64,000 nt of DNA from Natrialbaceae archaeon AArc-T1-2 (GTDB lineage Archaea; Halobacteriota; Halobacteria; Halobacteriales; Natrialbaceae). Under the pieces are notes generated by a model. That model did no database searches. It worked only from the letters and a program-made list of their open reading frames with translations, and had not been told where the DNA came from. A program made the position numbers and the translations under genes. This document shows positions 42,818-44,787 of the stretch, piece by piece. The stretch's first letter is position 1; every line of letters begins with the position of its first letter. The stretch is taken from the NCBI RefSeq assembly GCF_030273315.1, contig NZ_CP127174.1:806001-870000 (forward strand), given 5' to 3'.

Positions 42818-43081
42818 ATGTCCAGTTCCACCACCCACGACCGACGAACGACGTCGTCTCGCGACGAAGATACGTCCGATCGGAAGACACTCGAGCGGAT
42901 CGCTCCCGGACTCGCAACGCCTGTCCGCGTCATGAGCTTCTGGATGGCGATCGTCCTTCCCTTTCTGTACGTCCCGTTGCTCGTGACAGGGCTCTCAGAT
43001 GCCGCCGAGACGGTCACGTTTCTCGGGCTTTTCGTAGCGAACCTCGTTGCGCTCTACGTCGGCCACTCGCATCGTCGCTAA
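42818..43081 (+). CDS. Small two-helix membrane protein
   Basis: An 87-residue protein. A polar, Thr/Ser/Asp-rich N-terminus (about 1-30) is followed by two hydrophobic helices (about 38-60 and 64-82) and ends with HSHRR. Function is not recognised; small proteins near terminal-oxidase genes are sometimes assembly factors, but nothing in the sequence proves this. A long inverted repeat starts 14 nt after its stop. Confidence 0.65.
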   Translation: MSSSTTHDRRTTSSRDEDTSDRKTLERIAPGLATPVRVMSFWMAIVLPFLYVPLLVTGLSDAAETVTFLGLFVANLVALYVGHSHRR

Positions 43082-43094
43082 GCGGGCGTCGACA

Positions 43095-43132
43095 GTACAC
43101 TACTGTACGTACCTCACTCTGCAGTAGTGTAC
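43095..43132. terminator. 11-bp perfect inverted repeat between convergent units
   Basis: GTACACTACTG (43095-43105) and CAGTAGTGTAC (43122-43132) are perfect inverted copies with a 16-nt spacer. They lie between the plus-strand gene ending at 43081 and the minus-strand micro-operon ending at 43207, so a bidirectional terminator is the simplest reading. A protein-binding site is possible. Confidence 0.5.
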
Positions 43133-43206
43133 CGAAGAAAGACCGCAGACGTGCCAACAGCGCCCCGTCCTCGGCAGAATGAGTCGGGGTCCTGTGGAGC
43201 TGGAAG

Positions 43207-43302
43207 CTATAGCGTTTCGAGCCGGACCACTCGACGGTCGTCGACACGATCAGCAACGGCGACGGTAATCTCGCGTTTCTCGCTCGAGGGCTGCTCGCTC
43301 AT
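43207..43302 (-). CDS. Micro-protein D of the tRNA-Pro-proximal operon
   Basis: A 31-codon frame (MSEQPSSEKREITVAVADRV, then DDRRVVRLETL). Its ATG overlaps the stop of the upstream micro-gene by 4 nt (ATGA at 43299-43302), which is the main reason to believe it. It has no Cys. Function is unknown, and it could be a chance frame. Confidence 0.4.
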   Translation of the reverse strand: MSEQPSSEKREITVAVADRVDDRRVVRLETL

Positions 43303-43451
43303 GTCGAACCATCCCGCGCGGCACCGCAGACACACCGACTACCCGCTTTCGAGCACTCGAAACAAAGCTGGTTGTACGGGTGATCCGGGTCACGGTCGAC
43401 CGCGTACCCCGTGTGACCGTTCTCGAGGTTGACGACGTAGCCGGTCGTCAC
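43299..43451 (-). CDS. Micro-protein C, Cys-rich, putative zinc binder
   Basis: A 50-residue protein from a GTG at 43449-43451, beginning MTTGYVVNLENGHTGYAVD. Four Cys in LCFECSKAGSRCVCG (CxxC and CxC, near residues 30-42) suggest a small zinc knuckle. It starts 15 nt after the stop of micro-protein B and overlaps D by 4 nt. No family was recognised. Confidence 0.5.
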   Translation of the reverse strand: MTTGYVVNLENGHTGYAVDRDPDHPYNQLCFECSKAGSRCVCGAARDGST

Positions 43452-43466
43452 GGCTGCTCACCCTCG

Positions 43467-43694
43467 TCAGTGACCGCCGCGCGCGAACGTTCGAGGGTAC
43501 TCCTCGAGTGGGTCGGGATGGGTAACCGATAGACCGGCGGCACTTCCCTTCGCAATTCGCTCGAGCGTATCGCACTCGGGACAGCGGTGGGCGACGTCGT
43601 TATCGTCTCTCTGCGACCGCCGGAACTCGGGCGTGACGTGCGAGCCACAGCAGCGACAGCACCGCGGGTCACGATCGACCTCGAGGCGCATCAT
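43467..43694 (-). CDS. Micro-protein B, DUF7563-like zinc-finger protein
   Basis: A 75-residue protein from the ATG ATG pair at 43694. CCRCCGSHVTPEF and HRCPECDTLERIAKGSAAG give two CxxC pairs about 22 residues apart, the pattern of the small DUF7563-type zinc-finger proteins found in haloarchaeal chromosomes, plasmids and viruses. A longer in-frame reading to 43961 is basic and runs through tRNA-Pro, so it was rejected. The start overlaps the stop of micro-protein A (ATGA). Confidence 0.62.
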   Translation of the reverse strand: MMRLEVDRDPRCCRCCGSHVTPEFRRSQRDDNDVAHRCPECDTLERIAKGSAAGLSVTHPDPLEEYPRTFARGGH

Positions 43695-43810
43695 GGCTGA
43701 CACACCCCGTCGTCTTTCGCGGGACACTCCTGGCCGACTTCCTCGATTGCGAACCCACAGAATCGACACATGTGGACCGCTGGCGGGAGGTCCTCGGCAT
43801 CGGAACTCAC
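43691..43810 (-). CDS. Micro-protein A, zinc-ribbon-like
   Basis: A 39-residue protein from a GTG at 43808-43810 (MSSDAEDLPPAVHMCRFCGF). It has CRFC near residues 14-17, then single Cys residues near 29 and 37, a possible zinc site. It is the first of four tightly packed minus-strand frames. The promoter-like region directly upstream contains a palindrome. It is too short for a confident family call. Confidence 0.5.
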   Translation of the reverse strand: MSSDAEDLPPAVHMCRFCGFAIEEVGQECPAKDDGVCQP

Positions 43811-43826
43811 GCAGACCACCCCTGCT

Positions 43827-43842
43827 TAAACACGGGTGTTTA
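43827..43842. promoter_or_regulatory. Palindromic operator-like site upstream of the micro-operon
   Basis: TAAACAC-GG-GTGTTTA is a perfect 7-bp inverted repeat with a 2-nt spacer. It overlaps the AT-rich TATA-like elements 17-34 nt upstream of the first micro-gene, so a dimeric repressor bound here would block transcription. Confidence 0.5.
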
Positions 43843-43870
43843 GTCCACCTATCGCCAAAGAGAATTTTGA

Positions 43871-43893
43871 GACGACAGAGTACTCTCCCTGTC
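43871..43893. repeat. Nested inverted repeat downstream of tRNA-Pro
   Basis: CGACAG and CTGTCG flank the internal 10-nt palindrome AGAGTACTCT. The element lies between the tRNA-Pro 3' end and the micro-operon promoter. It may terminate tRNA transcription or bind a protein. Confidence 0.4.
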
Positions 43894-43920
43894 GTAATTT
43901 TCATCCGGCAAAACGTTGAA

Positions 43921-43991
43921 TGGGACCGCCGAGAGTCGAACTCGGGTCCTACGGACCCCATCCGCAGAGGATACCACTACCCCACGGTCCC
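43921..43991 (-). tRNA. tRNA-Pro (anticodon GGG)
   Basis: The 71-nt minus-strand sequence folds with acceptor arms GGGACCG and CGGTCCC plus discriminator A. The anticodon stem TGCGG/CCGTA (one G-T pair) encloses the loop ATGGGGT with anticodon GGG, and the T arm CCGAG/CTCGG encloses TTCGACT. No intron and no encoded CCA are present. No second copy of its 3' end was found nearby. Confidence 0.95.
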
Positions 43992-44112: not shown

Positions 44113-44787
44113 ATGAACCGGCGGACGTACCTCTCGCTGGCGAGTGGAATCGGGACGGCACTCTGGGCCGGCTGTCTCGACGTGGCCGGACTGAACGACG
44201 AAAACGGCGAGACGGCCGATCCTTCGAACGAGGACGACGGTTCATCCGGATCCGGGTCCGGCGACTCGGCCGACGACCGACCGTACGCTGACGTGTCGCC
44301 GGAAGACCTCCTGCTGACGCCGGCGGACCTTCCCGAATCGGAGTGGACGACCTTCAACGAGGAAACGACCGACGGGGGCGAGGTCAACAGACGCGATTAC
44401 CACTTCGAGTACGAGGTGGTAGCTGGTCCTGACGTACTCTGTGAGGTTCGCTCCGGCGTCTACCGTCAGGGCGAGTTCGGCGTCGTCGCGGGAATCGACG
44501 TCGGGACGATCGGATCGTACGACGAGTTCGTGACCACGTTCGAACGCGAACGCGAACTCGTCGAGGACGGGGAGATGTACGCTGTCAGTCGAGGGCTGGA
44601 CGTCGCGGACAGTGGCTTCGCGATGGTCCTCGAGGAGACGACGGTTCGAGCCGACTTCCGTGCCGGAAACACTTGGGGAAAAGTTATGGTTTCGCTCGCG
44701 AGCGGTCGAGAAGAGCACGCACCGCTGGCGCCGTCACTCGATCAGGTCGAGACGCTCGTCGCCGAGAAGTACGACGGTTGGCACTAA
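44113..44787 (+). CDS. Secreted lipoprotein, unknown function
   Basis: A 224-residue protein. MNRRTYLSLASGIGTALWAGC carries a twin-Arg start and a lipobox with Cys21, so it is a Tat-type lipoprotein. A Ser/Gly/Asp-rich linker (about 30-55) leads to a globular domain with LLLTPADLPESEWTTFNEE, a form seen in haloarchaeal exported proteins of unknown role. A TATA box (AGTATAC at 44083-44089) lies about 27 nt upstream of the ATG. Confidence 0.8.
   Translation: MNRRTYLSLASGIGTALWAGCLDVAGLNDENGETADPSNEDDGSSGSGSGDSADDRPYADVSPEDLLLTPADLPESEWTTFNEETTDGGEVNRRDYHFEYEVVAGPDVLCEVRSGVYRQGEFGVVAGIDVGTIGSYDEFVTTFERERELVEDGEMYAVSRGLDVADSGFAMVLEETTVRADFRAGNTWGKVMVSLASGREEHAPLAPSLDQVETLVAEKYDGWH

Follow-up and report, generated by a model that had tools for sequence, protein, structure and literature searches.

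The small reading frames behind the tRNA-Pro(GGG) gene are very likely the attL-side stub of a betapleolipovirus-type provirus, which was once inserted in that tRNA gene. The stretch of DNA that we analyzed (64,000 nt, called the window) has four minus-strand frames, A to D, downstream of the 3' end of the tRNA (Table 1). An earlier note on this DNA had described them as a four-gene operon that might be a domesticated regulatory module. The coordinates in that description are correct: the frames have 39, 75, 50, and 31 codons, with ATGA overlaps at A/B and C/D and a gap of 15 nt between B and C, and pairs of cysteines are present in A, B, and C. However, the set is better described as a provirus stub than as an operon or a domesticated module: a deletion in B came with a frameshift, C is internally deleted, and D is unsupported as a gene. 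Because the SNJ2-type integrase and attR are missing, we classify the locus as a provirus relic of a known kind, not as a provirus.

Table 1. Features of the locus, by position in the window
Feature	Position	Strand	Evidence or remark
tRNA-Pro(GGG) gene, integration target	43921-43991	-	ARAGORN; B is 182-312 nt downstream of the same tRNA in at least 29 other family genomes
att core, 13 bp, CTCGGCGGTCCCA, at the 3' end of the tRNA (attL)	43921-43933	-	Also present at the L040 junction on the integrase side
Remnant (3' part) of the attP-bridging CDS (SAVPFNVLPDENYDRESTL...), which stops early at 43849	43849-43920	-	In-frame similarity to L041 and L042
Palindrome TAAACAC-N2-GTGTTTA	43827-43842		Only TAAAC...TTTAAG is conserved
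Gene A, 39-aa Cys4 microprotein, GTG start, SD-like site GGGGTGGT	43691-43810	-	att-linked family
Gene B, DUF7563 / PHROG 7550, 75 aa, with its four Cys but without the tail	43467-43694	-	
Fossil of the usual B tail (AAVTDEGEQP, then stop), +1 frame	43448-43480	-	Stop overlaps the GTG of C
Frame C, GTG start, 50 aa, relative of the HJTV-4 gp5 family, 25-codon in-frame deletion	43299-43451	-	
Frame D, 31 codons, without relatives; truncated or a chance continuation on the side of the deletion	43207-43302	-	
Gene E, conserved chromosomal small membrane protein, boundary, outside the relic	42818-43081	+	All 61 sampled family genomes have a relative

In the window, the stretch that begins at the 3' end of the tRNA and includes A can be aligned with an integrase-att-A-B junction from another genus, which identifies the site as an attL with a 13-bp core. 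In this junction (locus L040 of genome G061), the end of the integrase gene is followed by CTCGGCGGTCCCATTCAACGTTTTG and then by the same stretch, the SD-like site, and A and B as in the window. An alignment of five elements, which compares the window with such junctions or attL sites in G061, G120, and G030, is continuous from the end of the tRNA into A, and A lies between att and B in the window as it does in these three genomes. Between the core and A is the 3' part of an attP-bridging CDS, which has an early stop here. CDSs that bridge attP are described in pleolipoviruses in section 3.7 of PMC7911831. Cores of 13 bp were also reported for an SNJ2-type element (PMC8371274) and, in a passage of PMC7911831, for Humcor2 at tRNA-Pro. 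Integrase-att-A-B junctions occur inside chromosomes where two pleolipovirus-type elements are in tandem at one att, as at L041/L042 (G120) and L136/L040 (G061).

The resemblance of B to DUF7563, which the earlier note had pointed out, was borne out: B matches the Pfam family (PF24444) with E = 3e-12 and 46.2 bits, against a curated cut-off of 27, and it matches a viral protein family (PHROG 7550) with E = 4e-23. None of A, C, or D matched a curated family above its cut-off. In a phage collection, B matched only pleolipoviruses, namely HRPV-9, SNJ2, and Harhisp1. In all three, B is the first gene past attP on the side opposite the integrase (in HRPV-9, the frame that matches B differs from the annotated one). 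Given this order, an integrated copy of B must adjoin the tRNA, and it does so. Relatives of B are present in 121 of 125 family genomes, and in at least 30 of the 122 where tRNA-Pro(GGG) was found, including the window's, B lies 182-312 nt downstream of this tRNA and on the same strand (at least 29 besides the window, with matches to B listed to about E = 1e-12). Among the matches listed, B was on the wrong side or strand of tRNA-Pro(GGG) in none of the 122. The suggested link to tRNA-associated integrated elements is borne out.

The cysteines of B that are of the zinc-ligand type (positions 13, 16, 38, and 41) are all intact, and their spacing makes B a candidate zinc-binding protein. The AlphaFold model of B (pLDDT of 54) is too poor for judging the zinc site, and we treated the GATA-type fingers from a PDB profile search (E = 0.24-0.76) as noise. 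Scans of genome and viral contigs using B alone gave no match, and a literature search for DUF7563 found no paper.

The C-terminal tail of B is shortened. In the nearest relatives, B has 90-98 amino acids and mostly ends with (V/I)ATDGGExxx, versus 75 amino acids in the window. The usual ending can be read only in the +1 frame, with a stop that overlaps the start of C, so a stretch was lost from B together with a frameshift. This loss need not be fatal, as short-tailed B proteins are normal in SNJ2. Also, the near-invariant Gly29 (Gly in 62 of 65 sequences) is Arg in the window. Pairwise dN between the window's B and three relatives is 0.34-0.37, as compared to 0.25-0.28 among those relatives; this suggests, from pairwise dN rather than a formal branch test, that B, but not A, changed faster on the window's branch. 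Other copies of B beside a tRNA are broken as well: L174 lacks one of the zinc-ligand cysteines, and L112 and L123 match in two frames. The TDGGE of the tail (as in L040, L044, and L045) is encoded by GGGGGTGAG, which probably is the next gene's Shine-Dalgarno site, and it may be conserved for that reason rather than for the protein.

Gene A belongs to an undescribed family of microproteins of about 40 amino acids, with four cysteines, that is almost locked to att sites. A profile of A, run against 293 genomes of the order, found relatives in 94 of them and in 39 of 87 genera. We scored 41 distinct loci, drawn from the best matches: A was directly behind the 3' end of a tRNA, on the same strand, at 32 of them and directly behind an integrase at 4, while 5 had neither a tRNA nor an integrase. 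A was followed by B at 13 of the 41 loci and was misplaced at none. At nearly all of the A loci, the start follows an SD-like GGNGGTG(G/A) at a distance of a few bases. For A, dN/dS is about 0.16-0.31 against three relatives; it is undamaged and not fast-evolving. Comparisons of A with Pfam and PHROGs found no convincing family match, phage records yielded nothing convincing, and a PDB profile search gave nothing below E = 0.16, which we treated as noise.

On the circular plasmid PL23 (L181, 2988-3074), A lies between the integrase and the next gene, in the attP region, with overlapping junctions. No annotated gene covers it there (PLSDB's gene table has known gaps), which agrees with the earlier remark that such small genes are missed by annotation. 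A plasmid of Halomicrobium urmianum (L182, 1841-1924) has A in the same place, directly after the integrase. On contig C4 of G336, A matches at 1823, 15900, 29977, and 53788, and the spacing among the first three is exactly 14,077 bp, which suggests a 14-kb element in tandem or a mis-assembly.

Frame C is an internally deleted copy of a tailed-virus gene. It matches both ends of a viral family of 75-aa proteins (the N-terminal 16 and the C-terminal 30 or so residues) and lacks the 25 central codons, including two of the family's cysteines. A member of this family that we used as a query is 91% identical to gp5 of HJTV-4, and the family is found in HJTV-4-like regions of other genomes. The neighborhood of B and C recurs in another genome: at L130 (9621-9982), a DUF7563-like gene is directly upstream of a full-length homologue of C. 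Frame D had only chance-level matches and is unsupported as a gene; the idea that it is a truncated HJTV-4 gp6 was rejected, as no similarity was visible by eye. Conservation in relatives, the lack of which would have spoken against the frames according to the earlier note, is clear for A and B but was not seen for D, and C has homologues but is deleted. The earlier note had also named dN/dS near 1 and frameshifts in close strains as signs against the frames: the former was not seen for A or B, but the frameshift of B relative to its nearest relatives touches on the latter.

Two repeats that were thought to frame the genes are less informative. The palindrome across the putative promoter is exact. 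However, relatives keep only one part of it (TAAAC...TTTAAG) and not the symmetry, and the window contains 103 palindromes with 7-bp arms and loops of up to 4. We rejected a conserved operator because only half is conserved and such palindromes are common by chance. The 11-bp inverted repeat that was said to close the 3' side (43095-43105 and 43122-43132) is exact too, but it is one of three in the window, is outside the range of the frames and the palindrome (43207-43842), and is just behind the stop of the unrelated chromosomal gene E (43081). It probably belongs to the end of gene E rather than to the relic.

The right end of the element is missing. The 13-bp core is single copy in the genome, with no second exact match. 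In the 20 kb downstream, we found no integrase, as the earlier note had observed, and no betapleolipovirus gene besides B (no spike protein, NTPase, or replication genes). Together, these absences indicate that the right end was lost. A duplicate of the tRNA's 3' end within the window was considered as attR and rejected, as the longest shared words are 11 nt. Among 23 related loci with B beside a tRNA, 6 have a second exact core, and at 9 an integrase gene lies within 20 kb; several others retain hardly more than the window does. At L166, L174, L179, and L180, the B behind tRNA-Pro(GGG) is accompanied by few other pleolipovirus genes or by none. In contrast to such stubs, L051 is a provirus of 18 kb that runs from tRNA-Pro(TGG) and B to an SNJ2-type integrase. 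The window's own genome has a near-complete SNJ2-like provirus (L054, C1 at about 3.026-3.042 Mb) and a partial one (L053, C1 at about 1.340-1.352 Mb), which is at tRNA-Pro(TGG) and has no recognized spike gene.

Since gene E is present in every sampled family genome, it bounds the relic at about 850 bp, and the 3-kb stretches around E in the sampled genomes contain no other gene of the locus. On the other side, the gene that lies upstream of the tRNA (44113-44787, plus strand) encodes a protein of 224 aa whose start is lipoprotein-like, and none of 124 family genomes has a relative of it. Neither neighbor thus led to an empty site in synteny. The genus has only one further genome, which is 67% complete and in which we did not find the tRNA-Pro pattern.

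On the circle of such elements, the integrase, the attP-bridging CDS, A, B, and then variable genes come in this order, tightly packed on one strand. As the first four are co-directional and overlap or nearly do, they are likely co-transcribed on the circle. Integration splits the bridging CDS and moves A and B from the integrase to just behind the host's tRNA gene. We propose that, in the window, the rest of the element, including the integrase and attR, was lost later, presumably by deletion. At most about 850 bp (43082-43933) would be left of it: what remains of the bridging CDS (its 3' part), A, the shortened B, C as a tailed-virus gene with its internal deletion, and D as an orphan frame. 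In active elements, A and B may bind zinc and regulate lysogeny or the integration state; both are candidates for zinc or DNA binding, and their separation from the integrase could work as an expression switch. A more specific scenario, which we consider rather doubtful, is that A is expressed with the integrase operon while on the viral circle but, once integrated, from its place behind the host's tRNA, and could report or set the integration state by controlling directionality or immunity. Orphan pairs of A and B, such as the one in the window, could then be retained by the host to guard the tRNA site.

Alternatively, the host might have kept A and B after the provirus decayed, for example by using them to repress or exclude related viruses at the same tRNA. 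A is undamaged, B's cysteines are all intact, its dN/dS is below 1, and the SD-like site is still there, which leaves room for such a function after the loss; a bare B behind tRNA-Pro(GGG) at L166, L174, L179, and L180 would also fit with retention by the host. However, the tail of B is gone, as is a near-invariant glycine, C is deleted, copies of B beside tRNAs are broken at L174, L112, and L123, and the window's B is more diverged from its three relatives than they are from each other. When compared to relatives from other genera, A and B both have a dN/dS well below 1; these values mix the periods before and after the virus was lost and mostly reflect time in active viruses. Host use of A and B is improbable, and nothing here favors it.

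It is far less probable that the locus is a minimal integrative element (a satellite) that uses the integrase of other proviruses in the cell. Two other proviruses of this type are in the genome, and short tRNA-A-B-integrase arrangements do exist (L047), but the locus has no replication gene, and without a second exact att core in the genome, excision by the known route is impossible. We give the least weight of all to chance open reading frames in high-GC DNA. This does hold for D, as far as is visible, but it is refuted for A and B, which have hundreds of relatives, a conserved order, and dN/dS below 1, and in C both ends of a viral family are still present.

As the remains of a betapleolipovirus-type provirus, a puzzling micro-operon becomes a recognizable scar. 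B just behind tRNA-Pro(GGG) marks a present or past insertion of a pleolipovirus in about a quarter of the family's genomes. And with gene A, which was unnamed and missed by annotation, a published question about the role of genes at the attP junction becomes directly testable.

Compared to known systems, C shares the N-terminal 16 and C-terminal 30 or so residues of the gp5 family of HJTV-4, a tailed haloarchaeal virus, but not the 25 central codons and their two cysteines. B is a DUF7563 protein (PF24444) above the curated cut-off with all four cysteines, and differs by its shortened tail and the change of Gly29 to Arg. In the pleolipovirus arrangement of section 3.7 of PMC7911831, an attP-bridging CDS is followed by a CxxC gene; the window has the 3' part of such a CDS and a CxxC gene (B) in the same place, with A in between, a gene that is not named in the text of that section. 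Unlike the betapleolipoviruses SNJ2, HRPV-9, and Harhisp1, the window has just the att-side stub, with A between att and B and without integrase, replication, or virion genes. It is like these viruses and their proviruses in the homologue of B that comes first past attP, in an att site at the 3' end of a tRNA, and in a core of 13 bp, the length reported for an SNJ2-type element and for Humcor2.
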